This document shows, one piece after another, positions 27,068 to 60,725 of a stretch of DNA of 64,000 nt. Below the pieces are notes generated by a model. It was not told the DNA's origin. It did no database searches and saw nothing but the letters and a program-made list of their open reading frames with translations. Position 1 is the stretch's first letter. Each line of letters opens with the position of its first letter. The position numbers and the translations under genes were made by a program. Source of the stretch: Spirochaetaceae bacterium (GTDB lineage: Bacteria; Spirochaetota; Spirochaetia; CADAEX01); assembly GCA_009780675.1 (NCBI GenBank), contig WQZP01000007.1:1-64000 (forward strand), written 5' to 3'.

Positions 27068-27076
27068 GTGCGATAA

Positions 27077-27130
27077 ATGATTTCAATAATAATATGTTCA
27101 ACTGAAGAAGTAGAGGTTTCCATATGGTAA
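27077..27130 (+). pseudogene. Relic of a family 2 glycosyltransferase start
   Basis: An ATG at 27077 with GGAGAGG upstream reads MISIIICSTEEVEVSIW and then a stop. MISIIICST is the usual beginning of GT2 proteins. Nothing else of a GT2 gene follows. The fragment lies exactly at the border between the rfb block and the AT-rich genes downstream, as expected of a recombination junction. Confidence 0.5.
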
Positions 27131-27972: not shown

Positions 27973-28090
27973 AAGCCTTTATTGTAGTAAACTTTGAAAC
28001 CTCAACAAAGCCATTGCGGCTTTTGTCAGGATTAATAAAGAGAATTGCGGGAACCAGAAAAAAATAGTAACGAGAGGGTGAAAAAATATC

Positions 28091-33758: not shown

Positions 33759-33893
33759 CATACTCGGCATGCTGTAGGTGTATTGAGTCAACCATAAAAA
33801 ACAAGCGATACGCTTAGCATCGAGGTTGTGAGCAATATATGCAAACTGTAATGCTGCATCTTGGAAGAATTAAATAGTTTTAAAGGAGGAATG

Positions 33894-36347
33894 ATGGTTT
33901 CTGTTAGGTTTTGTAAAATTTTATTAAGTCTCAAGGTAATAACTGCCATATTATTATGTATAAATATTTTGTTTTCACTTTTTTCCTCATCAAGATTATT
34001 TTTTATAAGCCTTGTGGAAAAATATGTGATGCATAGAGCGCTGAATGTATCTCATTGGGATTCTGTTGTTTTTAATTATTCAATAATTTTTATTATTATT
34101 TTTGGAGTGTTGTTGCTATACTTGTACAGCATAAACATAATAAATTCGAAGATCAAAAATATTATTCAAAAAAAAGTGTTGGTGTTTTTATTAATAATTT
34201 TATCCGGTCTGGCAATAACGCAAATATTCCTTACTTCAGGTGATTTGAGGGATATGCTTGTAAGAGAACAATACGTAATAAGATATACACAAGATGAATT
34301 GTACAGTAATCTTAAAGATTTTTCTATTGAAGGAAGCGTGATAATTTCTACAAGCAATGATCCATGGATTTTTTTGGATACAACTAGTGTAAAACCATTT
34401 AAATATATAAGACTGGATATTGACTTACTTGGCGCAGAGAGAGTGTGGGCACAGTTTTTTTATTGGTCTGTCTCTGAAGAATGGTTTTCAGAAGCTAACT
34501 CAAAGCGACAAATATTAAGAAACGGTGTAAACCATATTAGGATTCCCATTCGAGAATACAGAGGCATAAGGCTTGATTTAACAGAAATAGAAGGAGTTGC
34601 GCTTTCTGTGCGATCGGTTGAGTTAACGAATAAATTTAGGCCGTCCCCAAGGGATATGTTGCTGGGAGTATTATTGAATGCCCTTTGGTGGGGTATCTTT
34701 ATCTTGGTATTTAAAATAGCTTATTTAAAGAAACATTTAATGGAATTTATCTCGATTATAAAATTGGGTATGAATAAAGCGGCTGAAAAATTGAGTACGA
34801 TGTACCCATCCGAATATCTGGAAAAGTTATGGAAAAGTATTACGTTTCCTGTTAAGATTACGTTTGTTTCAACCATAATTATAGGGTTAATTGCTTATTT
34901 ATTTCATATTACTAACATGTTGCCCAATCATGATTCTGTTTTCGTATATCACGATTCACGCTGGATAGTGACCCAGGGGCGATGGTTTTTTTCTATAGCG
35001 GATCGGTTGAACAGCTATTATATATTACCATGGGTTAGCGGTTTTATGACAATTATTTATATAGCTATTTCTGCTTGTCTTGTCATAAAATGTCTAAGAA
35101 TTAATAATAACCTTAATTGTGTTTTAATTTCAGGTCTAATGGTTTCTTTTCCTTCAGTTACCATTGCGTTATTGTATTTTGCTGATACTTTTTATTTTTC
35201 ACTACTTCTTGCTTGCCTTGCAGTCTATATTACCGCTCGGTTTCGTTTTGGTTTCTGTATAGGATTTGTTTTTATTGCTATGTCTCTAGGTATTTATCAA
35301 GCGTTTATTTCTGTTGCCGCAGGTCTTGCAGTTGGAATTCTTATTGTCGATATACTGCAGACGAACATTCCGGTAAAAAAAATATTATTGAAAGGAATGC
35401 GTTTATTTTTAATGTTGCTATTAGGTCTTATAGCATATTTTATAATGGTTAAAATGTCATTGAAGTATTATCAAGCAGGACTGACGACTTACATGGGGAT
35501 TGACGAAATGGGTAGAATACCTATTGCTATGCTTCCTCTATTTATAAAACAAGCATATGCCGGTATATATCATTTTTTTGTTAACGACATATATAATGCT
35601 CACAGCTTCTTTTTGCCAAACATCTTATCCGTTTTATTTTTTATATCCTGTATAATTTTTGTTATAATTGTCAAAGAAAAACAGCTTATAAAGAAGAGGG
35701 CACATTTCTTTCTTCTTATTTTTCTATCTATTTTATTTCCTATTGCCAGCAATGTTATATATTTAATGAATGCCAGTTTTATTTATTTAAATATGATTTA
35801 CGGGGTTGTTTTAGTACCAATAGCGGTAATAGTGTTATTGGAGACAGTTCAAAAAAATATGTGTATTAATGGAAGCCAATTTACCCAATTTTTTAAGCGC
35901 ATAGCTTGTTGGATGATATCTATTTCTTTTTTACTCTGCATTTATAATTATGTAATTTTTGCAAACATAATATATAAAAAAGCTCATATTGTATATGAAC
36001 AGGGGTATGCTTATTCCGTTGAGTTAGCAACACGTATTCAAAGCACAGATGGGTATACAATGGATATTCCTGTTTTATTATATGGTGATCGCGGTGCGTC
36101 CATAAACGAGCATCCTGCTTTTAATAAATTTAAATGGCTTACTGGTTCTACGCCCAATCTTCCCGCGAGTTATAGTTATGTTCCGTTTATGCAAAATTAT
36201 CTTGGTTTTAGAGATGGTCTTAAGATCTTCGAGCCCGTGCATTTTGAACTATATAATATCGAGAAGCAAGAGTTATATATTATGCCACGCTATCCGGAGC
36301 CAGGATCAATAAAAAGAATAAATGATGTATTGGTTGTCAAATTTTAA
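33894..36347 (+). CDS. GtrII-type membrane glucosyltransferase (O-antigen modifying)
   Basis: AGGAGG stands 4 nt before the ATG at 33894 and 1 nt before another ATG at 33891; the former is chosen. The 817-residue protein has two N-terminal membrane segments, an extracytoplasmic beta-rich region (to about 245), and then at least eight further segments. NHDSVFVYHDSRWIVTQGRW at the start of the second half matches the GtrII (Glucos_trans_II) family: the acidic periplasmic loop followed by RW. GtrII enzymes move glucose from undecaprenyl-phosphate-glucose to a surface glycan. The GtrA/GtrB partners are 8 kb away (44489, 44926), and a relic of a second GtrII start follows gtrB. Confidence 0.78.
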   Translation: MVSVRFCKILLSLKVITAILLCINILFSLFSSSRLFFISLVEKYVMHRALNVSHWDSVVFNYSIIFIIIFGVLLLYLYSINIINSKIKNIIQKKVLVFLLIILSGLAITQIFLTSGDLRDMLVREQYVIRYTQDELYSNLKDFSIEGSVIISTSNDPWIFLDTTSVKPFKYIRLDIDLLGAERVWAQFFYWSVSEEWFSEANSKRQILRNGVNHIRIPIREYRGIRLDLTEIEGVALSVRSVELTNKFRPSPRDMLLGVLLNALWWGIFILVFKIAYLKKHLMEFISIIKLGMNKAAEKLSTMYPSEYLEKLWKSITFPVKITFVSTIIIGLIAYLFHITNMLPNHDSVFVYHDSRWIVTQGRWFFSIADRLNSYYILPWVSGFMTIIYIAISACLVIKCLRINNNLNCVLISGLMVSFPSVTIALLYFADTFYFSLLLACLAVYITARFRFGFCIGFVFIAMSLGIYQAFISVAAGLAVGILIVDILQTNIPVKKILLKGMRLFLMLLLGLIAYFIMVKMSLKYYQAGLTTYMGIDEMGRIPIAMLPLFIKQAYAGIYHFFVNDIYNAHSFFLPNILSVLFFISCIIFVIIVKEKQLIKKRAHFFLLIFLSILFPIASNVIYLMNASFIYLNMIYGVVLVPIAVIVLLETVQKNMCINGSQFTQFFKRIACWMISISFLLCIYNYVIFANIIYKKAHIVYEQGYAYSVELATRIQSTDGYTMDIPVLLYGDRGASINEHPAFNKFKWLTGSTPNLPASYSYVPFMQNYLGFRDGLKIFEPVHFELYNIEKQELYIMPRYPEPGSIKRINDVLVVKF

Positions 36348-36364: not shown

Positions 36365-37144
36365 ATGAAAGTAGCAATCTTAGCCGGCGGGCTTGGAACC
36401 CGTCTTTCAGAAGAAACAAATTTGATTCCAAAACCCATGGTAGAAATTGGTGGGCGCCCAATTCTATGGCATATAATGAAAATTTACTCTTATTGGGGTT
36501 TTAATGATTTTATTATTCTTACAGGCTACAAATCCCATGTCATTAAAGATTATTTTATTAATTATTATACACGTTATTCGGATATTACAATTGATATGGC
36601 AAATAATTCGGTTGAACTACACAACCATAGGACCGAGCCCTGGAAGGTTACCATGCTCTATACAGGGCAGGAAACCATGACAGGGGGCCGATTACTTGCC
36701 GCAAAAGATATTATTGGAAGAGAACGCTTTATGTTAACTTATGGTGATGGGGTAAGTAATGTCAATATTCCTGATTTAATTAAATCGCACGAGCATTCTG
36801 GAAAGTATGCAACATTAACATCTATACAGCCCAGCGGGCGTTTTGGTGCGTTGGATATCAAAGAAGATGGAGCAATAACTTCTTTTAAAGAAAAACCAGA
36901 TGGTGATAATGCCTGGATTAATGGCGGTTTTTTTGTAATGGAACACAATGTGTTTGACTATTTGACCGAAGGCAACGATACTATTTTGGAGAGAAAGCCC
37001 CTTGAGACTTTGGCAGAAGAAGGACAGCTTAATGCTTATAAACATACAGGTTTTTGGCGGCCAATGGATACTTTAAAAGATAAAAATGATTTAACTGATA
37101 TGTGGACAAAGGGGACAGCCCCATGGGCGATGTGGTTAAAATAA
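36365..37144 (+). CDS. rfbF: Glucose-1-phosphate cytidylyltransferase
   Basis: The 259-residue protein has GGLGTRLSEETNLIPKPMVEIGGRPILWHIMKIY in pieces, the RfbF signature, and TYGDGVSNVNI. It makes CDP-glucose from glucose-1-phosphate and CTP. CDP-glucose leads to CDP-4-keto-6-deoxyglucose through the next gene, whose start overlaps this stop by one base. These two genes open the block with visibly higher G+C than its left neighbours. AAAGGA precedes the ATG. Confidence 0.96.
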   Translation: MKVAILAGGLGTRLSEETNLIPKPMVEIGGRPILWHIMKIYSYWGFNDFIILTGYKSHVIKDYFINYYTRYSDITIDMANNSVELHNHRTEPWKVTMLYTGQETMTGGRLLAAKDIIGRERFMLTYGDGVSNVNIPDLIKSHEHSGKYATLTSIQPSGRFGALDIKEDGAITSFKEKPDGDNAWINGGFFVMEHNVFDYLTEGNDTILERKPLETLAEEGQLNAYKHTGFWRPMDTLKDKNDLTDMWTKGTAPWAMWLK

Positions 37145-38190
37145 TGCTTGATTTTTATAAAAATAAAAATGTTTTTTTAACAGGACACACAGGATTCAAG
37201 GGCGCATGGCTTTCCAGAATTCTTTTACAGGCTGGAGCAGCCAATGTTACAGGATATGCTCTTGAACCACACACTACACCATCGCTTTTTGTTCAGACAA
37301 AAACAGAAAAAAATATAAATTCTATAATAGCTGATATCAGAGATCGTAATACTCTTGTTTGGGCAGTACAGAATGCAAAACCAGATATTATATTTCACTT
37401 AGCAGCCCAGCCTCTTGTGAGGCTTTCCTACCGTGAACCGGTTGGTACATATGATACAAATATTATGGGAACTGTGAATATTCTTGAAGCAGTGCGGCAA
37501 ACATCTTCGGTGCAATCTTTCGTGAATATTACAACAGATAAGGTTTATGAAAATAAAGAATGGTGCTGGGGTTATCGCGAGAATGAGAATTTATGTGGCT
37601 TTGACCCTTATTCCAACAGTAAGTCATGTGCTGAGCTAGTGACGTATAGTTATCGCAATGCTTTTTTTAAGGATAAAGGCTCTTCTGCTATTTCCACTGC
37701 ACGCTCTGGTAATGTCATAGGTGGTGGCGATTACGCTGAAGACAGGATTATTCCTGATTGTGTACGAGCAATGGGAGCAGGAACAGAGATTATCATAAGA
37801 AACCCCCACTCCACGCGCCCGTATCAATATGTCTTGGAATGTTTGTATGGGTATTTACTACTTGCGGAAAAGCAGTATAATAACAAGAATTTCGAGGGGT
37901 CGTACAACTTCGGACCTGATGACGACAGTTGCGTGACGAACGAACAGCTTGTCAATTTGTTTTGTGATGCGTGGGGGGGAGATGCGTTGTGGCGCGTCCA
38001 GGGAGACGGCGGTCCGCATGAAGCTAATTTTTTGAAGCTTGATTGTTCAAAGGCAAAGTCAATACTTGGATGGAAGCCATGTTGGGACATAAGGACTGCA
38101 GTTGAAAAGACTGTAGAATTCGCAAAAATCACTGCCGATGATGAAAGAAGCGCCTGCGTTGACCGGCAGATCGGAGCGTACTTTGGCTGA
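37144..38190 (+). CDS. rfbG: CDP-glucose 4,6-dehydratase
   Basis: The ATG at 37144 sits in the rfbF stop and starts the family opening MLDFYKNKNVFLTGHTGFKGAWLS (in pieces). The 348-residue enzyme has HLAAQPLVRLSYREP, NITTDKVYEN and the active-site YSNSKSCAEL, which are the RfbG features. It makes CDP-4-keto-6-deoxyglucose. The usual next enzyme for 3,6-dideoxy sugars, RfbH, is not here. Instead an aldolase and thiamine enzymes follow. Confidence 0.95.
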   Translation: MLDFYKNKNVFLTGHTGFKGAWLSRILLQAGAANVTGYALEPHTTPSLFVQTKTEKNINSIIADIRDRNTLVWAVQNAKPDIIFHLAAQPLVRLSYREPVGTYDTNIMGTVNILEAVRQTSSVQSFVNITTDKVYENKEWCWGYRENENLCGFDPYSNSKSCAELVTYSYRNAFFKDKGSSAISTARSGNVIGGGDYAEDRIIPDCVRAMGAGTEIIIRNPHSTRPYQYVLECLYGYLLLAEKQYNNKNFEGSYNFGPDDDSCVTNEQLVNLFCDAWGGDALWRVQGDGGPHEANFLKLDCSKAKSILGWKPCWDIRTAVEKTVEFAKITADDERSACVDRQIGAYFG

Positions 38191-38902
38191 ATTCGATAAA
38201 TTTGCTCAAAATTATTCTGATGAAGCTGCAAAGGACTTGGGAAATTTCGAGAAATACCGCAATACTGCTTTTCTATACAAAAGCCAATACCTAAAATACA
38301 TTTTGCCAAAAGAGCCGAAAGGAATACTTGATTTTGGTTGTGGAGTAGGATTGAATGTACCATATTTGAAAAAATATTTTCCAAACGCAAATCTGTTCGG
38401 TTGTGATGTATCATCGGAGTCAATAAAGATCGCCGAAGATAATTTTCCATACTGCGAATTCTCAGTTGTGAATACGCCGGAAGGGCTGATGCGGTTCAGA
38501 GATAAAATCAATGTAATATTTGTCAGCACCGTTTTACATCATATACCGTCTGTTGAACATGAGAAGTGGATTAACGGGCTTCATTTGGCAATGAACAGCG
38601 GGGACTATCTGGTAATTTTTGAACACAATATAAAAAACCCGATAACGGCAAAAGTTGTTAAAGGGTCAAAAGGGGATGAAGAAGCGATAATGCTTGACGC
38701 GAGATACTGTGAGCAGCTCGTGAAAGGCAGGTTTTATGGAACACTGGTGAGGAATCAAGAGATTAAAGTAACTTGCAATAACGTAAGGCTACGCTACACT
38801 TACTTCTTCCCTTGGCGAAGCAGTCTATTTACAGCTATTGAACGGTTTTTATGGTTCATCCCGCTCGGCGCACAGTATTGTGTGTATGCAAGAAAATTGT
38901 AA
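38183..38902 (+). CDS. SAM-dependent methyltransferase
   Basis: A TTG at 38183 with GGAG six bases upstream is favoured; an ATG at 38138 is also open. The 239-residue protein starts AEFDKFAQNYSDEA, as do many UbiE-like enzymes, and has GILDFGCGVGLNVPYLKKYF (SAM motif I), FGCDVSSESIKIAE and VIFVSTVLHHI. It overlaps rfbG by 8 nt. In this block it could methylate the branched sugar or its precursor. The acceptor is unknown. Confidence 0.82.
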   Translation: MAEFDKFAQNYSDEAAKDLGNFEKYRNTAFLYKSQYLKYILPKEPKGILDFGCGVGLNVPYLKKYFPNANLFGCDVSSESIKIAEDNFPYCEFSVVNTPEGLMRFRDKINVIFVSTVLHHIPSVEHEKWINGLHLAMNSGDYLVIFEHNIKNPITAKVVKGSKGDEEAIMLDARYCEQLVKGRFYGTLVRNQEIKVTCNNVRLRYTYFFPWRSSLFTAIERFLWFIPLGAQYCVYARKL

Positions 38903-38918
38903 GGATGATTGGTAAATT

Positions 38919-39968
38919 ATGAATAAGCGCATTCAAATTTTGGACTGTACCCTTAGGGACGGCGGACTTGGTCTTGAGGACGCAAGGATAAACAAAGAAG
39001 CTGACCTTGTATTTTCCAAAGATGACATGGATGGTGTGTCACACAATTTGAGCCGTTCTGGTATAGATATCATTGAAATTGGCTCAATAGAAATATCAAA
39101 TGATGATAAAAGAAACATGGCTATATATCAAAATATGGAAAGCATTTCCAATGAAATACCTAAGCTGTACAATCCTAATCAAATGTATGCTGCTTTATAC
39201 AGAGGCCCTGATACACCTTTATCAGACATTCCATATTGGAATGAGTCTTATTGTAAAGCAGTCAGAGTAATACTGCGTTATTCAGAACTTAAAAAATCTT
39301 TGGATTTTTGCAGAGAGCTTTCAAAGAAGAACTATAAAGTATTTATACAACCAATGGTCACAATGCGTTATACAAAGGATGAGCTGCAAATGCTTATTGA
39401 TGATGCGAACGAGATGTCCGCCTATGCTTTATATTTTGTTGACAGTTACGGGTATATGCTTGATCAGGATGTAAAGCATTTCTTTTCAACATTTGATAAA
39501 GGCTTGAATGCATCAATAAAAATTGGTTTTCATGCTCACAATAACATGAATTTGGCGTTTTCAAACGTACTTGCTTTTATTATGCAAGAGTCCGACAGAG
39601 GACTTATTGTTGATTCCTGCTGCCTCGGCATGGGACAAGGAGCTGGAAATCTCCAAACCGAGATTATAGTTGATCACCTGAATAAGTATTATGGAACTTC
39701 CTATAATTATGATGCAGTACTCATGGCTTGTGAAATAATAGAAAAATATTCAAATACAAGTTTATGGGGTTATTCGCTAACGCGTTTTCTTCCTGCAATT
39801 AATAAATCAGCATATAAAATTTCATTAACCTTGAGGAATAAATATAAACTTTCTTTTGTAGAAATACATAACATTTTAAAAAATATGCCTGGAAAGTACA
39901 GGGATCGTTACACCCCTGAAGGCACTAAAGACTTGCTAAAGATGTTTGGCTACACAAATTTAATTTAG
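38919..39968 (+). CDS. DRE-TIM metallolyase/aldolase (HMG-CoA lyase/HOA type)
   Basis: The 349-residue protein has the superfamily motif LDCTLRDGG near the N-terminus, the metal-binding HAHNN with GFHAHNNMNLAFSN, and DSCCLGMGQGAGNLQTEI. These fit 4-hydroxy-2-oxoacid aldolase, HMG-CoA lyase and isopropylmalate synthase relatives. It lacks the C-terminal DmpG-type extension, so a specific substrate cannot be named. Within a CDP-sugar block it may form or split a C-C bond between a keto-acid and an aldehyde. It is 14 nt from the ThDP gene that follows. Confidence 0.85.
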   Translation: MNKRIQILDCTLRDGGLGLEDARINKEADLVFSKDDMDGVSHNLSRSGIDIIEIGSIEISNDDKRNMAIYQNMESISNEIPKLYNPNQMYAALYRGPDTPLSDIPYWNESYCKAVRVILRYSELKKSLDFCRELSKKNYKVFIQPMVTMRYTKDELQMLIDDANEMSAYALYFVDSYGYMLDQDVKHFFSTFDKGLNASIKIGFHAHNNMNLAFSNVLAFIMQESDRGLIVDSCCLGMGQGAGNLQTEIIVDHLNKYYGTSYNYDAVLMACEIIEKYSNTSLWGYSLTRFLPAINKSAYKISLTLRNKYKLSFVEIHNILKNMPGKYRDRYTPEGTKDLLKMFGYTNLI

Positions 39969-39982
39969 GAATAACGTGTCTA

Positions 39983-41692
39983 ATGAAAGCGTCTGACTAC
40001 ATTGTAAATTTTCTTATCGACAAAGGTGTTGCGGATGTCTTTGGAATACCCGGCGGAGTTGTGCTTGACTTTTTAGACTCAGTGGGCAAGAGAAAAGGCG
40101 AGATAGCAGCACACTTGAATTACAATGAACAGGCATCGGCGTTTGCAGCCTGTGGTTACGCACAGATTGCTGGAAAATTGGCAGCCGCGTATGCCACGCG
40201 CGGACCAGGAATAACAAATATGGTTACTGGCATTACCAATGCCTTTTGCGAATCGCTGCCGATTTTTTTTATAACCGCACATTCTCATAAAAGCTTTTTA
40301 TCGGATATACGAATTGAAGAAGAACAGGAATTTGATACGATCAAGATGTTGTCGTCAGTAACTAAATATGCCGTAAAGATTGAGAATGTTGAAAGCGTGC
40401 GTTATGAGATTGAAAAAGCCTGTTATTTTGCACTGAACGAGCGCCCCGGACCGGTGTTAATTGATTTTTTGTTGAGTGTACTAAGGGCCGACATCGATCC
40501 AAAATCACAGCGTCCATTTATACCGGAACAAGATATTAATGATGGGCAAATGTCCGCCAAAATGATTGCAAACTGCTTAAAGCAGGAGTTAAGTAAAGCG
40601 AAACGGCCGGCGGTATTGATCGGTAACGGAATACGGCAGTCCGGTATGTCAAAATATGTCGAGAGGTTAATAAAAAAATGGAATATCCCCGTTCTTTCAA
40701 GCCGCTCCGCTCAGGACATCATTCCTGACTCAAAGAATTATTATGGATACATAGGCAGTCACGGTATAAGATATAGTAATTTTATCCTGTCTAAATGCGA
40801 CTTGCTCATTTCGCTTGGAAATAGGCTTATGTTTAAGCCATCATCTAAAACTTTTGGAGTTATTACCGATAGGGCGAAGATAATAAGGATTGATGTCGAC
40901 AAAAATGAGTTTCTAAGAGAAATCCCCAATTCCGTATGCTTTGCCGCAGATCTGAGAGCAGTTATCCCATTACTTGTTGACGCTGATATCGAGTGGCAGG
41001 ATAGCACTGAGTGGGGTTCTGTCTGCAAAAAAACAAAGGAAACTTTGTATGCCAATGACTCAGATTTTCCAGTGAACGTCATTGTTAAGGTAATAAAAAG
41101 TGTCGGCTCTCAAACAGTAATAACAAGCGATGTCGGTAATAATGAATTTTTGCTCTCAAGAGCATATACCCTTTCTGGAGCGACGAATCGGATATTATAT
41201 TCAAAATCATTCGGGCCGCTCGGCATATCTATGCCTAAAGCAATTGGGGCATTTTATTCAACAAAAAGCAAAGTCCTCTGTTTTACCGGCGACCAGGGCT
41301 TACAGATGAACATTCAGGAACTTCAGTTCATTGTCAAAGAGAATTTGCCGATAGTTATCGTTGTACTAAATAATTTTTCGTCCGGCATGATTCGTGATCA
41401 GCAAGAGAAAAAGTTTGATTCGCGATTTTTGTGTACGACGCTTAATGATGGTTACAGTGTACCTAATATTGAAAAGGTTGCAACCGCGTTTGGAATGGGT
41501 TATCATCGTTGCGATAATAAGACTGATATCAATGCATTAAAATCTATGCTTGGTGATGATGGACCGGTTATAATCGAAATCTTGGTTGACAAGACTGAAG
41601 AAATTATTCCTCATTTGCCAGTGGGGTATCCGATGCAAAATATCGCCCCGGAAATAGACGGGGTACTTTATGAAAGATTAGAAAGGATGTGA
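39983..41692 (+). CDS. ThDP-dependent acetolactate-synthase-like enzyme
   Basis: The 569-residue protein has the three-part fold of the acetolactate synthase family. ThDP-activating Glu49 (NYNEQASA), a middle domain with VLIGNGIRQSGM, and the ThDP-binding segment GDQGLQMNIQELQF, with NN 28 residues after the GD, are all present. In sugar pathways such as YerE, enzymes of this group add a two-carbon acetyl unit from pyruvate to a 4-keto CDP-sugar. Which donor and acceptor this enzyme uses is inference. It overlaps the next gene. Confidence 0.88.
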   Translation: MKASDYIVNFLIDKGVADVFGIPGGVVLDFLDSVGKRKGEIAAHLNYNEQASAFAACGYAQIAGKLAAAYATRGPGITNMVTGITNAFCESLPIFFITAHSHKSFLSDIRIEEEQEFDTIKMLSSVTKYAVKIENVESVRYEIEKACYFALNERPGPVLIDFLLSVLRADIDPKSQRPFIPEQDINDGQMSAKMIANCLKQELSKAKRPAVLIGNGIRQSGMSKYVERLIKKWNIPVLSSRSAQDIIPDSKNYYGYIGSHGIRYSNFILSKCDLLISLGNRLMFKPSSKTFGVITDRAKIIRIDVDKNEFLREIPNSVCFAADLRAVIPLLVDADIEWQDSTEWGSVCKKTKETLYANDSDFPVNVIVKVIKSVGSQTVITSDVGNNEFLLSRAYTLSGATNRILYSKSFGPLGISMPKAIGAFYSTKSKVLCFTGDQGLQMNIQELQFIVKENLPIVIVVLNNFSSGMIRDQQEKKFDSRFLCTTLNDGYSVPNIEKVATAFGMGYHRCDNKTDINALKSMLGDDGPVIIEILVDKTEEIIPHLPVGYPMQNIAPEIDGVLYERLERM

Positions 41693-41700
41693 AACGCTTT

Positions 41701-42531
41701 ATGTCTACAGATTTGGAACAAAAGGCCCTTGACTTGCGGAAAAGGGTTATTTCAGTAAGTAAAATGTCAGGAGCGGGTCATATCGCATCGTCTCTTTCGT
41801 CAATAGATATTTTGAACGCCCTATATAACGGCGGCATACTTCGTATTGACTGCAAGCAACCAGAATGGAGAGAAAGAGATCGCTTTATTCTCAGCAAGGG
41901 ACATGCCACGTTGGCCCTGTATAATGTTTTGGTCGATGCAGGTTTCGTATCACAAAAGGATGTCGATAGATATTGTCAGAAAGGAAGTATATTCGGTGGA
42001 CACACCACTTCATCCGTTCCCGGTGTTGAGTGCAACACTGGCTCTTTGGGTCACGGCCTCTCTTTTGCCATCGGCTCAGCACTGTGCGCTAGACTTGAAA
42101 AAGCCGACTATCTTACTATCGCCCTTTCCGGTGATGGCGAGTGCCAGGAGGGGAGTATGTGGGAAGCTGCAATGTTCATCACTCACTATAATTTAATCAA
42201 TTTGGTCTGGATAATCGACAAGAACAATATACAGCTTTGCGGACGCATCAATGCGGTGATGAATCTGGATCCACTTGATGAAAAGCTTAAGGCTTTTGGT
42301 TTTGATGTCAAGGTCATAGATGGTCATAACTATGATGAGTTGATGTCCACTATAAAAATAGACAGAAACAATCTTCCTGCCAAACCGATAGCAATTATCG
42401 CTAACACAATAAAAGGCAAAGGCGTCCCGTTAATGGAAGATGTACCAGAATGGCACGGGAGGAAGCCCAACGCCGATGATTACGCAATCATATACGAGCA
42501 ACTGAGAATGCCGAAGGATGCAGGAAAATGA
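41701..42531 (+). CDS. Transketolase, N-terminal (ThDP-binding) subunit
   Basis: The 276-residue protein covers only the first transketolase domain: RDRFILSKGHATLALYNVL (active-site His), GSLGHGLSFAIGSAL, and the ThDP motif GDGECQEGSMWEA...NN. A GTG at 41689 is an alternative start that overlaps the ThDP gene. It must pair with the C-terminal subunit encoded next to form a working enzyme. Split transketolases occur in special sugar pathways, and here a glycolaldehyde (C2) transfer to a keto-sugar is possible. Overlaps the next gene by 4 nt. Confidence 0.9.
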   Translation: MSTDLEQKALDLRKRVISVSKMSGAGHIASSLSSIDILNALYNGGILRIDCKQPEWRERDRFILSKGHATLALYNVLVDAGFVSQKDVDRYCQKGSIFGGHTTSSVPGVECNTGSLGHGLSFAIGSALCARLEKADYLTIALSGDGECQEGSMWEAAMFITHYNLINLVWIIDKNNIQLCGRINAVMNLDPLDEKLKAFGFDVKVIDGHNYDELMSTIKIDRNNLPAKPIAIIANTIKGKGVPLMEDVPEWHGRKPNADDYAIIYEQLRMPKDAGK

Positions 42532-43466
42532 AAAAGGATTTTGAAGCCTCTCTTTATGAGCAAATGAAAATCAATAAAAAAATCGTCCTTTTTTTGGCTG
42601 ACAGCGTCTTTGATTTGTATGAAGAATTCGAAAGAGAATTTCCGGGTCGCTTTTTCAATTTCGGCATCGCCGAGTCGAACATGGTCGCAGCAGCCGGCGG
42701 ACTGGCAAAGGCATCTGGAAAAGGCGACGGCGAACTCATACCGGTCGTATATACTATGACCCCGTTTCTGATCTACAGAGCCTACGAGTTCATCAGAAAT
42801 GACATCTGTATGCAAAAGTTGAATGTTAAACTCGTAGGCGTATGCTCCGGCGTCAAGAATAATAACCTCGGGCCTACCCATCACGCAACCGAAGACATCG
42901 CCGTCATGCGAGTATTACCTGATTTGACAATACTTTCGCCGGTCAGTCCAAAAGAGGTGTCGACTGCTTTTCTAAAAAGTCTCGAACACAACGGGCCTGT
43001 CTACATCAGATTGGGAAAGGCGTTCGAAACGGAAATTTATGATGACGCGCCTCAATTTGAAATAGGCAAAAGCACGCTGATTCAATCCGGGAATGACATC
43101 ACCATAATATCCACAGGCAACATCATAACCTGTGCGTTGGAAGCTGCGGCACGTCTGAGAAACGAAGGGATCACGGCAGACGTGATAAATATGTCCACAA
43201 TCAAGCCGATTGATGCTGAGGGAATAATCCGCTCGGCACGAAAAACAGGACGTGTGGTTTCGGTCGAAGAACATCAAATCATAGGCGGGCTTGGTTCGGC
43301 GGTAAGCGAGGTTCTGTGCGAGAACAATATCCACACGTCGTTCGAAAGAATAGGTTTCAAGGATACTTTTTGCACAGAATATGGCTGGCACAAGGATTTG
43401 TTGGAGTTTTATGGAATGTCGCCAGACAGTATTTTTAATGTTTGCAAAAATATTCTGAACAAATAG
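42528..43466 (+). CDS. Transketolase, C-terminal subunit
   Basis: The 312-residue protein has the pyrimidine-binding domain with catalytic Glu in FNFGIAESNMVAAAGGLAK, GPTHHATEDIAVMRVLP, and the C-terminal domain (GGLGSAVSEVLCE). It complements the N-terminal subunit at 41701; the two together equal a full transketolase, and both have intact active-site residues. The pair overlaps by ATGA. The sequence is clearly richer in G+C than genes left of 36 kb. Confidence 0.9.
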   Translation: MKKDFEASLYEQMKINKKIVLFLADSVFDLYEEFEREFPGRFFNFGIAESNMVAAAGGLAKASGKGDGELIPVVYTMTPFLIYRAYEFIRNDICMQKLNVKLVGVCSGVKNNNLGPTHHATEDIAVMRVLPDLTILSPVSPKEVSTAFLKSLEHNGPVYIRLGKAFETEIYDDAPQFEIGKSTLIQSGNDITIISTGNIITCALEAAARLRNEGITADVINMSTIKPIDAEGIIRSARKTGRVVSVEEHQIIGGLGSAVSEVLCENNIHTSFERIGFKDTFCTEYGWHKDLLEFYGMSPDSIFNVCKNILNK

Positions 43467-43478
43467 AAGAGGGTTTTT

Positions 43479-44504
43479 ATGTTGAAAGAAAAAACTTTTT
43501 TAGTGACAGGGGCGACAGGGCTTATTGGCAGCAATATCATAAACAAGTTGCTGGGTATGAAAAACGCACACATCATCGCCCTAAGTCGCAGCGAAACAAA
43601 GCAGAAAGAGATGTTCAGCAAGCATATCAACAACGGTTCATTGGAGTGTGTCGCAAAAGATATCGGTACTGATTTTGATTTGCCATCTATCACCAGAAAT
43701 TCTCCTGTTGACGTTATTTTCCATGCTGCCAGCCCGATATCTGGCAAGATAATCACCGAATGCCCGGTGGATGTCATCAAGCCGAATCTTCTTGCCACGA
43801 CCTCTCTTTTAGACGGACTTGTCGACCAAAAGCACAAAACCGGGATCAATGGTCGGCTGATAATATTTTCTTCCGCAACGGTATATGGGGTAAACTCGCA
43901 GAGCGATATCACAGTGAGTGAGCCCGATACACAATGCTCTGATGGTTTAAATAGTGGGAACGCACCTTACGCCGAATCCAAGCGTATGACCGAAGTTATA
44001 GCACGGGCCTATGTAAAACAATATAATGTTGATGCGGTAATTGCTCGCCTCGGATGGGTCTACGGTGCGACCCTCTATCCCCCGGAAACCGCCATGTTTG
44101 AGTTCATAAACAACGCACTTCGCTGCGAAGACATCCGTTTTAAATCATCTGGGATGCCGAGACGTGATAACATTCATGTCGATGATGCGGTTTCTGGACT
44201 CTTTACTCTCATGGAAAATGGAGAGGCGGGAGATGCTTACAACATATCATCTGGAGGAGCTTTAGGTAATTTTGCAGCCATAGATGAAATTGCGGAAATC
44301 ATCGCCAAAGTCTCATGCGAAGAGCTGTCCAACAAAATTAAAGTAATCTACGAGAGCCAGCCGGCCCAATCCAGAAAGCCCGGAATCATAATGGGTAACA
44401 GCAAACTGGGGGCACTTGGGTGGAAACCAACCGTAGGGCTCTACGAAGGACTAAAAAACACGGTGTTGGGGCAGAAAGAGTATAATACATGTCGCGCGCA
44501 ATGA
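43479..44504 (+). CDS. NAD-dependent epimerase/dehydratase-like reductase
   Basis: The 341-residue short-chain enzyme has TGATGLIGSNIINKLLGM, HAASPISGK, IIFSSATVYG and the catalytic YAESKRMTE. It is of the type that reduces or epimerises nucleotide-sugars (for example CDP-sugar 4-ketoreductases such as YerF). It could reduce the keto group left after the carbon-chain addition by the thiamine enzymes, which is inference. A GAGGG motif precedes the ATG. The last 16 nt overlap the GtrA-like gene. Confidence 0.86.
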   Translation: MLKEKTFLVTGATGLIGSNIINKLLGMKNAHIIALSRSETKQKEMFSKHINNGSLECVAKDIGTDFDLPSITRNSPVDVIFHAASPISGKIITECPVDVIKPNLLATTSLLDGLVDQKHKTGINGRLIIFSSATVYGVNSQSDITVSEPDTQCSDGLNSGNAPYAESKRMTEVIARAYVKQYNVDAVIARLGWVYGATLYPPETAMFEFINNALRCEDIRFKSSGMPRRDNIHVDDAVSGLFTLMENGEAGDAYNISSGGALGNFAAIDEIAEIIAKVSCEELSNKIKVIYESQPAQSRKPGIIMGNSKLGALGWKPTVGLYEGLKNTVLGQKEYNTCRAQ

Positions 44505-44926
44505 TATCTTCTGGTCGTACTTCGATTCAGTTTTTTAAATTTGTAGTCGTTGGATTGTCCAACACGGCGATCGCCTATTTTATCTATTTTTTTTTGGTAT
44601 ACTTCGGCGTTCACTATTTGGTCGCCAGCATCACGTCTTTCGCTGTCAGCGTGCTGAATGCGTTTTTCTGGAACCACAGGTTCGTTTTCAAAGACGAAAC
44701 TGGCGGTAAACGCAATGTTATGCATTCGCTGATAAAAACCTATGTATCCTACGCTTTTACTGGCATTGTGGTACAGAATGTTTTGCTGTTTACTTTCATA
44801 GATGTGCTGTTGCTATCAAAATATATCGCGCCGCTTTTAGCATTATTTGTTACCGTTCCGCTTAATTTTTTTTTAAACAAGCGGTGGGCATTTAGACTGG
44901 CAAAGAGTAACAAGGAAGGTAATTAA
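44489..44926 (+). CDS. GtrA-like membrane protein
   Basis: The 145-residue protein has four hydrophobic segments and begins QFFKFVVVGLSNTAIAYFIYF, with NAFFWNHRFVFKD between segments 2 and 3 and FFLNKRWAFRL near the end. Both are GtrA-family features. GtrA flips undecaprenyl-phosphate-glucose across the membrane. The GtrB-type gene starts right at its stop. A GtrII enzyme at 33894 could use the flipped donor. Confidence 0.88.
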   Translation: MSRAMISSGRTSIQFFKFVVVGLSNTAIAYFIYFFLVYFGVHYLVASITSFAVSVLNAFFWNHRFVFKDETGGKRNVMHSLIKTYVSYAFTGIVVQNVLLFTFIDVLLLSKYIAPLLALFVTVPLNFFLNKRWAFRLAKSNKEGN

Positions 44927-45888
44927 TGAAGAAAATAAGCATAATGATACCGTGCTATAACGAAGAAGAAAATGTCGTTCCCCTAAGCGACGAGATAGTG
45001 AAAATCTTTAAAACCGAACTTGCGTCTTACGACTACGAGATTATATTCGTCGACAATTTCTCCACGGATAACACAAGACCGCTGTTGCGCGAGCTTTGCA
45101 GGCAAAACCAAAGGATAAAAGCAATATTCAACGCTAGGAATTTTGGACCGAATTCCTCTCCATATTATGGACTGTGCCAGACGTCTGGAGATTGTACTAT
45201 TCTGATAGTTGCAGATTTTCAAGAACCGGTTGAATTGATTCCCACTTTCGTCCATGAGTGGGAAAATGGCTATAAAATCATCTCTGCGATTAAGACAAAA
45301 AGCAAGGAAAATAAACTGATCCGTTTTATGCGTTCATGTTATTATAAAACAATCAAGAAGATGTCTGATGTCGATCAAATAGAACATTTTACCGGATTTG
45401 GACTTTACGATAAATCATTTATTGATGTGATGAAGAGTCTTAATGATCCAACGCCACACCTTCGTGGTGTAGTTGCAGAGATGGGTTTTCGTCGGAAAGA
45501 GATCAAATACGAGCAACAAAAACGAAAGGCCGGAAAATCAAAATTTAATTGGTATGTACTTTATGATATGGCAATGCTCAGTTTTACCTCTTATACAAAA
45601 ACTGGACTTAGGATAGCAACTATTTCTGGATTTATAATTGGTGGGCTCACTTTAATTGTAGCGCTCGTATACCTTGTGTTGAAATTAATGTACTGGGATG
45701 ATTTTCCTATGGGGATTGCGCCGCTGATTCTCGGAGTTTTCTTTTTTGGCTCTATTCAGTTGTTCTTCATTGGCTTCATCGGTGAGTATATAATGGCTAT
45801 AAACACAAGGCTCAGGCTCATGAATCGACCTCTTGTTATTGAAGAAGAAAGAATTAATTTTAGTTCTGACTTTAAGTTGGAGGACTAG
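44926..45888 (+). CDS. GtrB-like polyprenyl-phosphate glycosyltransferase
   Basis: The 320-residue protein has a GT2 catalytic domain (ISIMIPCYNEEENVVPL; IFVDNFSTDNTRPLL; LIVADFQEPVELI) and two C-terminal membrane segments (TISGFIIGGLTLIVALVYL; IQLFFIGFIGEYI), the GtrB/DPM layout. It should load glucose or another sugar onto undecaprenyl phosphate. With GtrA it forms the donor supply for a membrane transferase. The matching membrane transferase gene is missing directly downstream, where only its first codons remain. Confidence 0.88.
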   Translation: MKKISIMIPCYNEEENVVPLSDEIVKIFKTELASYDYEIIFVDNFSTDNTRPLLRELCRQNQRIKAIFNARNFGPNSSPYYGLCQTSGDCTILIVADFQEPVELIPTFVHEWENGYKIISAIKTKSKENKLIRFMRSCYYKTIKKMSDVDQIEHFTGFGLYDKSFIDVMKSLNDPTPHLRGVVAEMGFRRKEIKYEQQKRKAGKSKFNWYVLYDMAMLSFTSYTKTGLRIATISGFIIGGLTLIVALVYLVLKLMYWDDFPMGIAPLILGVFFFGSIQLFFIGFIGEYIMAINTRLRLMNRPLVIEEERINFSSDFKLED

Positions 45889-45923: not shown

Positions 45924-45974
45924 ATGGACTCGGTTAGATTTTGTAAAATTTTAAAAGGATATGAATATATCTAA
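45924..45974 (+). pseudogene. Relic of a GtrII-type gene start after gtrB
   Basis: An ATG at 45924 with GGAGA upstream reads MDSVRFCKILKGYEYI and stops at 45974. The first ten residues match the start of the GtrII-type protein at 33894 (MVSVRFCKIL) at nine positions, and the DNA is nearly the same over the TTTTGTAAAATTTTA part. The next gene starts inside it in another frame. It marks where a gtrA-gtrB-gtrII operon was cut. Confidence 0.72.
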
Positions 45975-48069
45975 ACAATCATCCTTATGCACTATATTTT
46001 TAGACTCAGGCAACGGCTTCAATAAAGACGAATATTTATTACTTTCGATAAGTAAATATGGAAATCAGTTTAGGGTAAGTATAAATATTACTCCTAATAT
46101 AAAAGGTATACGCTTTGATCCTTATGAAGGGTATGGCTGCATTATAACTGATTTTCAGGTATTAATAGATGGCAATTCAGCCTGTTATTCATATACCAAT
46201 AGCAATGAAATAAATAGCGTATTATTTTTCGATAACCTTGATCCGCAGATAGCTATTGATTTTAACAGCAAAGTTATTAGTACAGTGATATTATCAGGGG
46301 AAATTTATAGAATTAATCCTGCCAATCTTTCAATTCTTTTAAAATACAGGAGAAAAATTGAAAAGACAACCTGGATTAGAAAATTATTGAAAATATTCAA
46401 ACTACATATTATTTGTTTGCAAGTTCTTATCTTTTTTAAGAATTTTGGTAAACATTTTGATAAAACAGGATGTGTTATATATATTGATACCGGAAACAAT
46501 TTTAACGAAAAAGAAACCACATCTGTTTTGCTTAATAAAATTGGAAGCCGTTTTTGTGCAATAATTCAACCAACTTCAAATGCCAAGCGCATACGTTTTG
46601 ATCCTTATGAAGGGTATGGTTGTATAATAACTAATTTGCAAATATTTATAGATGGTAATCCCGCCCATTATTCATATACTAATAGCAATGAAATAGATAA
46701 CGTATTATTTTTTGATGACCTTGACCCACAAGTAGCCATTGATTTTAATCAAAGAGTTATTTCTACAATTGTAATATCTGGAAATATTTTCCAATTATAT
46801 CCTCATGTTATTTCAACTCTATCAAGATTTAAAAGAATATATGAAAAGTATATAGCAAAAAAAAGATATATTAGAAAAATATTTAAAATACTTAACTTAT
46901 ATATTGCTTGTTATAGGATTATTGTTTTTCTTTTTAAAAAAGGACGAGCCAGAGATTCAAAGCGAATTTATTCTTTTAAAGATGTGTGTAGTGATAAAAG
47001 TGTTTTATATCACAAGAAATTAAAATTGTCATATACACAGCCGCAATTTGATAATGATGTATCAAAATCAATAATATATGAAGATAAATTATACGCCCAA
47101 TATGCGGTTAAATTAGAAAGCGCAATGTTTTTTGGGTGTTCCAGTCTTATTATATGGAAAAATAAAGTGGTGTATGATTTGCCATTTTATGATATGGACC
47201 GTAGATATAATTATACAGATCCTCAAATAATAAAAGTTAAAGGAAGTAAAATTACTTTTTGGAAAAATCAAAAGGCTAGAATAGATAGGGCAATATGGAT
47301 GGGGGGCTGCGCTTCATATAATTACTATCATCTTATGTATGAATATGTTATTAAATTCTTGAAATTACAAACCTTAAATATTTCTACAGAAATACCTGTT
47401 TTTGTAGACCAAATATGTCTTGATGTGCCACAATACAGAGAGTTACTTGAACTAGTGAATAAAAAAAAATATCCTTTATTGCCTGCCCATCCAGATTATT
47501 GTTATATAACAAAAGAATTGTACTATATTAATTGCCCTAATTATATTCCAGTAAATTTTATCGATGATAACGATATTAAAGCCGAGGATTTTCAATTTGA
47601 TGTATCACTATTAATGGAATTAAGAAATTATTTACTATCATATTCATCAAAAAATGTTTTTCCGGAAAAAATATTTATTTCCAGAAAAAATGCAAATAAA
47701 ATCAGAAATTATAATGAAGACGAAGTAAAAGAGATATTTTTAAATGATGGATTTGAAATCGTATATCCTGAAACATTATCTATTAAAGATCAAATAGCAA
47801 TGTTTCATCAAGTAAAATATATTGCTGGTGGTTCTGGAGCTGCTTTTACAAATATCTTATTTTGTAATGATCATTGTAAGTGTTTAGTATTTGCAAAATC
47901 TACAGTACCGCTTTCAATATTTTCTACAATAGCACATATTGCAGGCGTTGATTTAAAATACATTACAGAGGAAGCAACAAGAGGTAAAAATAAGATAGAT
48001 AGTATACATGAATCATTTGAAATAGATGTTAATTATTTAAAAAAATATTTATCCTCATGGTGTAATTAA
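45961..48069 (+). CDS. GT61-like glycosyltransferase with two copies of an unnamed N-terminal domain
   Basis: The 702-residue protein has two repeats (about 10-118 and 171-281), each carrying DTG/DSG..FN, RFDPYEGYGCIIT, YSYTNSNEI and FFD.LDPQ.AIDFN. Between and after them are basic helical spacers. The C-terminal half (about 380-700) has FISRKNANKIRNYNE, YPETLSIKDQIAMF and GGSGAAFTN, typical of DUF563/GT61 glycosyltransferases of capsule loci. A third copy of the domain is in the protein at 58574. The domain is probably a beta-sandwich, but no name is known to me. Confidence 0.82.
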   Translation: MNISKQSSLCTIFLDSGNGFNKDEYLLLSISKYGNQFRVSINITPNIKGIRFDPYEGYGCIITDFQVLIDGNSACYSYTNSNEINSVLFFDNLDPQIAIDFNSKVISTVILSGEIYRINPANLSILLKYRRKIEKTTWIRKLLKIFKLHIICLQVLIFFKNFGKHFDKTGCVIYIDTGNNFNEKETTSVLLNKIGSRFCAIIQPTSNAKRIRFDPYEGYGCIITNLQIFIDGNPAHYSYTNSNEIDNVLFFDDLDPQVAIDFNQRVISTIVISGNIFQLYPHVISTLSRFKRIYEKYIAKKRYIRKIFKILNLYIACYRIIVFLFKKGRARDSKRIYSFKDVCSDKSVLYHKKLKLSYTQPQFDNDVSKSIIYEDKLYAQYAVKLESAMFFGCSSLIIWKNKVVYDLPFYDMDRRYNYTDPQIIKVKGSKITFWKNQKARIDRAIWMGGCASYNYYHLMYEYVIKFLKLQTLNISTEIPVFVDQICLDVPQYRELLELVNKKKYPLLPAHPDYCYITKELYYINCPNYIPVNFIDDNDIKAEDFQFDVSLLMELRNYLLSYSSKNVFPEKIFISRKNANKIRNYNEDEVKEIFLNDGFEIVYPETLSIKDQIAMFHQVKYIAGGSGAAFTNILFCNDHCKCLVFAKSTVPLSIFSTIAHIAGVDLKYITEEATRGKNKIDSIHESFEIDVNYLKKYLSSWCN

Positions 48070-48071
48070 TA

Positions 48072-50060: not shown

Positions 50061-50478
50061 AATCGGTTATACTTCTGGTGTATTTGATTTATTTCATATT
50101 GGTCATTTAAATTTATTACAAAGAGCAAAAGAACAATGTGAATATTTAATAGTTGGCGTCACTATAGATGATTTAGTTGCATATAAAAATAAAAAAGCTG
50201 TTATCCCTTTTGAAGAAAGGATCAAAATTATAAGCGCCATTAAGTATGTAGACATTGCAGTTCCACAAGAAAGTATTGACAAACTGGAGGCATGGAATAA
50301 ATATAAATTTAATGTTATTTTTGTAGGTGATGATTGGAAAGGTTCTGAAAGCTGGATTATTTATGAGAATGAACTTAAAAAAGTTAATGTTGATGTGGTT
50401 TATTTTCCATATACAAAAGGAACATCATCAACGTTAATTAATAATACTTTAATTTATTTACGAGATGGAAATACCTGA
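50050..50478 (+). CDS. TagD-like cytidylyltransferase
   Basis: The 142-residue protein has the nucleotidyltransferase motif HIGH (FDLFHIGHLNLL, His16-His19) and the C-terminal TKGTSST, the two key motifs of glycerol-3-phosphate cytidylyltransferases. It would activate an alditol- or amino-alcohol phosphate with CTP. It overlaps the transferase-like gene upstream and the ATP-pyrophosphatase gene downstream (1 nt), so the three may be translated together. Substrate is not fixed by sequence. Confidence 0.88.
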   Translation: MGYKIGYTSGVFDLFHIGHLNLLQRAKEQCEYLIVGVTIDDLVAYKNKKAVIPFEERIKIISAIKYVDIAVPQESIDKLEAWNKYKFNVIFVGDDWKGSESWIIYENELKKVNVDVVYFPYTKGTSSTLINNTLIYLRDGNT

Positions 50479-51521: not shown

Positions 51522-51534
51522 ATAAGAAGAGCTT

Positions 51535-52761: not shown

Positions 52762-52804
52762 ATATTATAAAATAATAAACCATAAAAGGAATAATTTTAA
52801 TAAT

Positions 52805-53935: not shown

Positions 53936-53973
53936 ATACTTCAATAATTTATATTTAATAAGGATTACTATAG

Positions 53974-60714: not shown

Positions 60715-60725
60715 AGGATCATATT

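Follow-up and report, generated by a model that had tools for sequence, protein, structure and literature searches.

What product can be expected of an operon in which the entry enzymes of the CDP-6-deoxyhexose pathway are joined to an aldolase, a thiamine diphosphate (ThDP)-dependent enzyme and a split transketolase? The question is raised by a block of eight genes on contig WQZP01000007.1 of a Spirochaetaceae bacterium (assembly GCA_009780675.1), of which we analyzed positions 1 to 64,000 (the window, 64,000 nucleotides). Our answer, offered with confidence that falls a little short of even, is that the block makes a C4-branched CDP-6-deoxyhexose, by an order of steps in which the aldolase acts on the sugar ketone, and that the sugar is handed to a Gtr-type side-chain system.

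The eight open reading frames (ORFs) span 36365-44504, all on the forward strand, and neighbors overlap or are separated by gaps of less than 20 bases:

36365..37144, + strand: RfbF, glucose-1-phosphate cytidylyltransferase (TIGR02623, 386.5 bits, cut-off 300)
37144..38190, + strand: RfbG, CDP-glucose 4,6-dehydratase (TIGR02622, 450.7 bits, cut-off 278, on the frame from 37138)
38138..38902, + strand: MT, S-adenosylmethionine-dependent methyltransferase (PF13649/PF13489)
38919..39968, + strand: ALD, DRE-TIM metal-dependent aldolase, a relative of 4-hydroxy-2-oxovalerate aldolase (PF00682)
39983..41692, + strand: GDQ-type ThDP enzyme, acetolactate-synthase fold with three domains (PF02775/02776/00205)
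41689..42531, + strand: split transketolase, N subunit (TKN), ThDP-binding (PF00456; best solved relative 6yak, 213.7 bits)
42528..43466, + strand: split transketolase, C subunit (TKC) (PF02779/PF02780; 6yaj, 215.5 bits)
43479..44504, + strand: extended short-chain dehydrogenase/reductase (SDR), NDP-sugar type, predicted final ketone reductase (PF01370, 129 bits)

Reading of the ORF suggests that RfbG likely starts at the ATG at 37144, which overlaps the RfbF stop, and the first 53 bases of the MT ORF lie within RfbG. RfbF and RfbG both exceed their curated cut-offs and mark the entry to a CDP-6-deoxyhexose pathway. ALD, the ThDP enzyme and the transketolase halves have family matches, none of them over an equivalog cut-off of NCBIfam, so that annotation does not specify the precise reaction of any of them. 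An earlier interpretation made from the letters alone (the sequence-only reading) had described eight same-direction genes of these families with intact catalytic residues and no RfbH. The ORF positions and the TIGR and Pfam matches bear this out, as do Glu49 and the GDQ motif (residue 436) of the ThDP enzyme and FGIAES in the transketolase C subunit. No RfbH over the cut-off was found in the genome of the organism (2.4 Mb, 82 contigs), where the best match scored 160 bits against a cut-off of 423. The same genome separately encodes a housekeeping acetohydroxyacid synthase (AHAS, 756 bits), DXS (710 bits) and transketolase (contig C20), and the block enzymes are therefore dedicated extra copies.

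When genome contigs were scanned with ALD, 30 loci were obtained, of which 29 are close, and a phylum search gave matches in 24 of 392 genomes, three of which, including that of the window, reached about 50% identity or more. The close-family set comprises 32 loci: L034-L062 from the genome scan, L069 and L070 from the phylum search (L006 and L007 are shorter copies of these and were counted once) and the window. Their ALDs are 49-63% identical to that of the window. Genes were counted by tblastn, except for the RfbG tail of L057; longer antisense ORFs, for example over RfbG in L043, mislead clustering of ORFs. A gene missing from the short contigs L035, L045 and L057 means little, and L062 is cut by a contig end. 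The sequence-only reading had considered that its pathway idea would fail if the aldolase and thiamine genes lay mostly apart from rfbF/rfbG. They were found together: RfbF and/or RfbG occur in the fetched stretch of 28 of the 32 loci (27 by tblastn, L057 by the RfbG tail at its contig start), and for three more (L059, L062, L069) an RfbG over the cut-off lies elsewhere in the genome. For L045, whose contig ends inside RfbH, an RfbG over the cut-off was found in neither stretch nor genome, and none was found for L040, which is counted for its RfbF. The gene set recurs in Bacillota, Bacteroidota and one CSSED10-310 contig, the nearest named species being Phascolarctobacterium faecium (L036, strain DSM 14760) with RfbF-RfbG-ALD-ThDP-SDR. 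The link of ALD and the ThDP enzyme to rfbF/rfbG holds across phyla, and the earlier proposal of a 4-C branch built in more than one step remains the best reading.

The partner of ALD divides the close family into two kinds of module. A ThDP enzyme is present in 20 of the 32 loci, each time directly downstream of an ALD (in L060, of the second ALD copy). In 11 loci a 2-hydroxyacid dehydrogenase is found instead, either of the D-type (L034, L039, L040, L046, L049, L070) or of the unrelated L-type (L043, L044, L047, L055, L061). None of the 32 fetched stretches contains both, and L062 is cut off. Representative dehydrogenases match 2-hydroxyacid dehydrogenase families below equivalog cut-offs, and that of L070 passes the Pfam cut-off. 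The exclusivity has a Fisher p of 1.2e-8, ignoring relatedness. It extends to the assemblies of the 11 dehydrogenase-type loci and L062, where a ThDP enzyme of the cluster type is absent and the best matches are at 29-32%, versus at least 38.8% for other members of the clade. In the ALD tree, which does not include L062, the two kinds interleave with five changes between them, of which at least two are forced by well-supported branches (rough bootstrap). The dehydrogenase-type L055, for example, is nested among Bacteroidota ThDP-type loci and groups with L053 and L054 at 100/92. These at least two forced switches are a safer figure than the Fisher tests, which ignore relatedness. The 15 ALD columns that differ most between the kinds include none that is near-invariant or catalytic; L060, with its two ALD copies, was left out of the group labels in the tree and the column comparison. 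Because the kinds interleave and no catalytic position separates them, the ALD product is very probably a 2-oxo acid, formed by one reaction that feeds both kinds of module.

The remaining genes of the modules are less constant. The block SDR is present in 15 of the 20 ThDP-type loci, with relatives of 41-50% in 14 of the 19 loci other than the window. Another SDR alone occurs in L038, L052 and L060, and neither SDR in L035 (contig end) and L048. Two SDR queries found no 4-ketone reductase in the 11 dehydrogenase-type loci, only 25% matches in L040 and L049 that are RmlB-like by eye, which fits consumption of that ketone by ALD. RfbH is optional, occurring in 5 of 20 ThDP-type loci, and its absence from the window therefore sets only the C3 hydroxyl. 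At L070:5202-12239, L049:5024-9038 and L043:3945-9032 the RfbF-RfbG-ALD genes and a 2-hydroxyacid dehydrogenase are accompanied by an acyltransferase-3-like membrane protein (the latter by eye), and these modules are predicted to make a CDP-sugar with a hydroxy-acid branch. Two different ALD genes, 61% and 51% identical to that of the window, lie in one cluster at L060:8001-11834.

ALD itself is modeled by AlphaFold2 with a pLDDT of 94, and its nearest folds are 3dxi (Z 30.0) and DmpG 1nvm (Z 27.4). An alignment of 31 ALD sequences has 25 invariant columns, among them R13, D14, H205 and H207, which form the RD and HxH motifs of the DRE-TIM barrel. The fold and the metal ligands are thus common to ALD and 4-hydroxy-2-oxovalerate aldolase (DmpG/MhpE). 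The two differ in that ALD scores 77.4 bits against TIGR03217 (4-hydroxy-2-oxovalerate aldolase), short of the cut-off of 286, has no aldehyde dehydrogenase partner and lacks the His following RDG in 8ih7 and 4lrs. This His, which we take to be the base in those enzymes, is missing from 3dxi as well in the alignment.

More distant ALDs (18 loci, 25-33% identical and often longer; settings partly judged by eye) lie in other surroundings. Six stand beside RfbF, RfbG, RfbH and a ThDP enzyme (L074, L076, L078, L081, L084, L086), and two beside a ThDP enzyme in a stretch without rfb genes (L083, L087). Eight are neighbors of KdsB- or PseF-like cytidylyltransferases and/or HAD phosphatases (L071, L073, L075, L077, L080, L082, L085, L088), and L072 and L079 belong to neither setting. 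Among ten such neighbors scanned, KdsB-type models exceed a cut-off in L085, L088 and L077 and KdsC-type models in L085, L088 and L073; PseF is matched weakly in L071 and L073. Fused or single DRE-TIM aldolases beside KdsB/PseF-like and/or KdsC/HAD genes, as at L085:6241-9070, L088:5750-8606, L073:5831-9002 and L077:5921-9634 (by eye also L071, L075, L080, L082 and L087), are candidates for a pyruvate-aldolase route to CMP-activated ulosonic acids. At L074:2210-10888, RfbF, RfbG, RfbH, a ThDP enzyme, an aldolase, a 3-dehydroquinate-synthase-like protein and an SDR (by eye) stand in a row and may form a route to a branched carbocyclic sugar, perhaps one resembling caryose. L063:3403-11457 (Desulfobacteraceae) encodes an acetaldehyde dehydrogenase and a 4-hydroxy-2-oxovalerate aldolase, both over their cut-offs, within an RfbFGH-ThDP-SDR cluster that is probably an erwiniose-like pathway. 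In the plasmid collection 76 records match ALD, all below 60% identity. Among five plasmid stretches examined, a related cluster occurs in one, L064 (Desulfobaculum bizertense plasmid NZ_CP090010.1), where several genes are fragmented and RfbG fragments lie at two places of the record; no rfb genes were found in the stretches examined of the other four. The single matching record of the phage collection (Salmonella) matches through a 4-hydroxy-2-oxovalerate aldolase.

The ThDP enzyme of the window has as its best match among solved structures 5ahk, which we take to be PpYerE, and the YerE-like JanthE ranks third. JanthE is PDB entry 8rph (PMC12188165; this and the papers below are cited from the parts of their text available to us). 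In the ThDP tree, built without YpYerE, ErwE and the ThDP gene of L087 (in two ORFs and too short for trees), the window enzyme belongs to a separate clade with 20 members (100/100), to which L078 is sister (100/99). PpYerE and AHAS form a weakly supported pair (91/59) outside this clade in the unrooted tree, and JanthE groups with the ThDP enzymes of L063, L074, L076, L081, L083, L084 and L086. The cofactor motif is GDQ in all 20 clade members and GDG or CDG in 13 other rows, L078 included; the YerE-like GDG (CDG in JanthE) is thus not kept in the window enzyme. As judged from its own clade and its GDQ motif, this enzyme appears to represent a separate subfamily, for which a YerE-like reaction should not be assumed.

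A second two-carbon-transferring enzyme accompanies half of these ThDP enzymes. A split transketolase is found in 3 of the 20 ThDP-type loci (window, L051, L069) and a DXS-like enzyme in seven (L038, L042, L048, L050, L052, L053, L054), whereas ten have neither. Transketolase or DXS thus occurs in 10 of 20 ThDP-type versus 0 of 11 dehydrogenase-type loci (p 0.005, ignoring relatedness). L051 and L052, with ALDs 97% identical, carry a split transketolase and a DXS-like enzyme, respectively. The sequence-only reading had counted both the split transketolase and the methyltransferase as part of the set. The co-occurrence search that it proposed did find the window's order ALD-ThDP-TKN-TKC-SDR unchanged in a genome of a different class of the phylum (L069), but the split transketolase, present in three of 20 loci, is not part of the core, and the methyltransferase is not conserved: L070 has its one further match, at 32%. 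Outside the close family, split transketolases accompany distant ALDs in L078 (with a ThDP enzyme) and on the plasmid L064. The split transketolases of the window and L069 are 48 and 54% identical; otherwise, as judged by identities without a tree, these enzymes resemble one another about as much as they resemble that of Carboxydothermus, so repeated recruitment is likely.

The window transketolase keeps the catalytic Glu (FGIAE) and GPTH in the C subunit and GDG, SKGHA and the conserved histidines in the N subunit. The TH..GEDG residues are lost from its C subunit: VCSGVKNNNLGPTH. The histidine (of THxx) and GED are lost from all five C subunits of the clusters (window, L051, L069, L078, L064). 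TH..GEDG is kept in 6yaj (Carboxydothermus) and in the organism's own housekeeping transketolase, and GED in human TKT. We take the lost residues to bind the phosphate and the alpha-hydroxyl of the acceptor. Their loss fits a non-phosphorylated acceptor without an alpha-hydroxyl, such as a -CH2-CHO branch, and would fit free acetaldehyde equally.

Read from the gene set, the families, the linkage, the exclusivity of partners and the lost acceptor residues, the pathway would run as follows. RfbF and RfbG would provide CDP-4-keto-6-deoxyglucose. ALD would then add pyruvate as its enolate, and the C4 ketone of the sugar is the most likely acceptor; the product would be a tertiary alcohol whose -CH2-CO-COOH branch makes it a 4-hydroxy-2-oxo acid. 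In sister modules the 2-hydroxyacid dehydrogenase would reduce the 2-oxo acid of the branch; in the window the GDQ-type ThDP enzyme would decarboxylate it to the branch aldehyde -CH2-CHO or take it straight into carboligation. The split transketolase would transfer a glycolaldehyde unit to the branch aldehyde, which has no phosphate and no alpha-hydroxyl, and DXS-like enzymes of sister modules would add an acetyl unit instead. The SDR would then reduce the resulting ketone and the methyltransferase may methylate a hydroxyl, with CDP-6-deoxy-4-C-(2,3,4-trihydroxybutyl)-hexose, its C3 hydroxyl kept, as the predicted product. For the family at large we propose, tentatively and with appreciably less than even confidence, that a DRE-TIM pyruvate aldolase extends the C4 ketone and that the 2-oxo branch is then either reduced or decarboxylated (by the GDQ ThDP enzyme) and lengthened (by transketolase or DXS), as interchangeable modules.

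A credible competitor, though we consider it doubtful, is an order like that of erwiniose and caryophyllose, in which ALD would join pyruvate to a free aldehyde and the ThDP enzyme would decarboxylate the product and transfer the acyl anion to the C4 ketone. The SDR would reduce the new ketone, transketolase or DXS would prepare the aldehyde, and the product would be a 4-C-(1,3-dihydroxyalkyl)-6-deoxyhexose, again with the C3 hydroxyl. Precedent exists in ErwE, which prefers longer functionalized donors such as 4-hydroxy-2-oxobutanoate, -pentanoate and -hexanoate, and in MMAR_2332 of caryophyllose synthesis, whose donor preference resembles that of ErwE (PMC12247030); the caryophyllose branch is a 1,3,4,5-tetrahydroxyhexyl group (PMC5706390). 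This order would also account for the acetaldehyde dehydrogenase and aldolase in L063 and for free 2-oxo-3-deoxy acids, as implied by distant ALDs beside KdsB/KdsC-like genes. JanthE as a close solved match and the suitability of the transketolase changes for acetaldehyde agree with it, and L064, with transketolase and ALD but no ThDP enzyme seen, fits a transketolase serving the aldolase. On the other hand, it leaves the 11 dehydrogenase modules unexplained: these would yield a free dihydroxy acid, with no activating gene recognized and no 4-keto reductase found by the two SDR queries, and aldehyde-making enzymes would be expected in them, whereas transketolase or DXS is found in none. The position of the window ThDP enzyme in a separate clade with GDQ instead of GDG or CDG also speaks against it. 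We favor addition of pyruvate to the sugar ketone by ALD because it explains why the dehydrogenase modules center on RfbF, RfbG, ALD and a dehydrogenase, why transketolase and DXS accompany the ThDP enzyme within the close family, and why half of the ThDP-type loci show no aldehyde source (in 10 of 20, neither transketolase nor DXS nor acetaldehyde dehydrogenase was seen). Direct branching with a two-carbon unit appears improbable. The ThDP enzyme would then put the acetaldehyde unit of pyruvate on C4 as YerE does, the SDR would reduce the ketone, and ALD and transketolase would build a separate, later substituent. The recurrence of the ThDP enzyme with an SDR, like that of YerE with YerF, and the best match to 5ahk favor this, but in all 20 ThDP-type loci the ThDP gene directly follows ALD, which suggests one pathway (the presence of ALD in all 32 follows from its use as query), and no gene to activate a separate substituent was recognized in the block. 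Least credible, and in our view very improbable, is a chance gathering of metabolic paralogues in a polysaccharide locus. Such loci do collect unrelated genes, and the methyltransferase is not conserved; however, the recurrence of the set across phyla, the shared order in L069 and the location of housekeeping AHAS, transketolase and DXS elsewhere in the genome are contrary to it, and the conserved linkage already contradicts it.

Several observations weigh against the order that we favor. We know of no precedent for a 4-hydroxy-2-oxovalerate-type aldolase adding to the ketone of a nucleotide sugar. The transketolase bond is its weakest step. Several conserved histidines are missing from the N subunit of L078, whose split transketolase may not work. 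L064 has RfbFGH, a split transketolase and a distant ALD, several genes being in pieces, with no ThDP-enzyme match in 18 kb, which speaks against a strict need of transketolase for the ThDP step and slightly lowers our confidence in this order. The settings of the distant ALDs support formation of 2-oxo-3-deoxy acids from aldehydes by the wider family, and the canonical acetaldehyde dehydrogenase and aldolase beside RfbFGH in L063 argue for a free 4-hydroxy-2-oxo acid there. The counts behind the exclusivity are not independent observations, and only two SDR queries were used to search the dehydrogenase-type modules, of which L040 and L049 have ORFs that look RmlD-like by eye. Finally, the YerE-like enzymes YpYerE and ErwE couple a 2-oxo acid directly to the C4 ketone (PMC12247030).

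The genes around the block suggest where the sugar goes. With its flanks the functional block extends from 33861 (GtrII) to 45888 (GtrA and GT2):

33861..36347, + strand: membrane glycosyltransferase of the GtrII type, 828 aa, which probably transfers the finished sugar in the periplasm (PF14264, 162.5 bits)
44489..44926, + strand: GtrA-type membrane protein, which probably flips the undecaprenyl-phosphate sugar (PF04138)
44926..45888, + strand: GT2 of the GtrB/ArnC/PgfS type, which probably synthesizes the undecaprenyl-phosphate sugar (PF00535; NF047588, 178.7 bits, below the cut-off of 500)

All components of a Gtr side-chain system are therefore present (the ArnC/PgfS-type matches of the GtrB-type GT2 being below cut-off), although the trio is not contiguous, with GtrII upstream and GtrA and GT2 downstream. 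Further upstream, at 25102-29923, lie an RmlD-type protein, an NDP-sugar dehydratase/epimerase-type protein and the rhamnan synthesis protein RgpF, and downstream, at 59938-61466, an ABC-2 permease and its ATPase. The simplest reading is a rhamnose-containing, ABC-exported polysaccharide with the branched sugar as a side chain added via undecaprenyl phosphate: GT2 would load the sugar on undecaprenyl phosphate, GtrA would flip it and GtrII would attach it to the polysaccharide. Directly past the block, at 45961-50060, are a GT61 protein and a protein with a C-terminal part like CDP-glycerol glycerophosphotransferase, and within the polysaccharide locus, at 50478-55131, an asparagine-synthase-like protein is followed by three radical SAM proteins.

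To our knowledge, yersiniose synthesis, which shares with the window a ThDP enzyme (YerE) acting on a CDP-4-keto sugar, proceeds without an aldolase. It differs further in its two-carbon branch, taken from pyruvate and placed on a 3,6-dideoxy sugar (PMC12247030). The sequence-only reading knew of no characterized pathway with exactly this set and overlooked ErwE and MMAR_2332 (PMC12247030). Erwiniose synthesis by ErwE of Pectobacterium atrosepticum has in common with the window the CDP-4-keto-deoxyhexose precursor, a ThDP enzyme of the decarboxylase superfamily and 4-hydroxy-2-oxo acids as branch carbon. It is built on a 3,6-dideoxy sugar, however, and needs the RfbH that the window lacks; the available text mentions no split transketolase (PMC12247030). 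Furthermore, the window ThDP enzyme belongs to its own GDQ clade, ErwE being outside the tree. Caryophyllose (MMAR_2332, Mycobacterium marinum) resembles the predicted product in its long C4 branch with a pyruvate-aldol pattern, attached by a YerE-like enzyme of ErwE-like donor preference (PMC12247030, PMC5706390), and term searches within a small set of papers found no mention of an aldolase or transketolase. The transketolases of the miharamycin/amipurimycin type are likewise split and proposed to branch a keto sugar; the 13 putative sequences mentioned are all from Streptomycetes (PMC12247030), in contrast to the location of the window enzyme in a surface-polysaccharide locus with an aldolase and a second ThDP enzyme. 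Ketone-accepting transketolases have been proposed from gene clusters, with experimental evidence still missing (PMC12247030), and sugars of the compared branched kind have been reported with and without the C3 hydroxyl (PMC9912281). By title and abstract start, no description of this gene set was found in the open-license literature, which is weak evidence of novelty. As far as these searches went, the aldolase-centered module, its exclusive partners, the GDQ subfamily and the split transketolase with a changed acceptor site appear to be new.

An odd operon thus becomes a testable and widely distributed module, in which the swaps of ThDP enzyme for dehydrogenase, of transketolase for DXS and of presence for absence of RfbH each predict a different branched sugar. 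It also adds, from sugar-branching clusters, split transketolases whose acceptor residues are altered. Should the substrates of ALD be aldehydes, ALD is a candidate for the type of enzyme supplying 2-oxo acids to ErwE-like enzymes; should it act on the sugar ketone, it would open a new enzymatic route to nucleotide sugars bearing a tertiary alcohol. The interchangeable modules, if confirmed, would mean that Bacillota and Bacteroidota make a family of surface sugars not yet reported.

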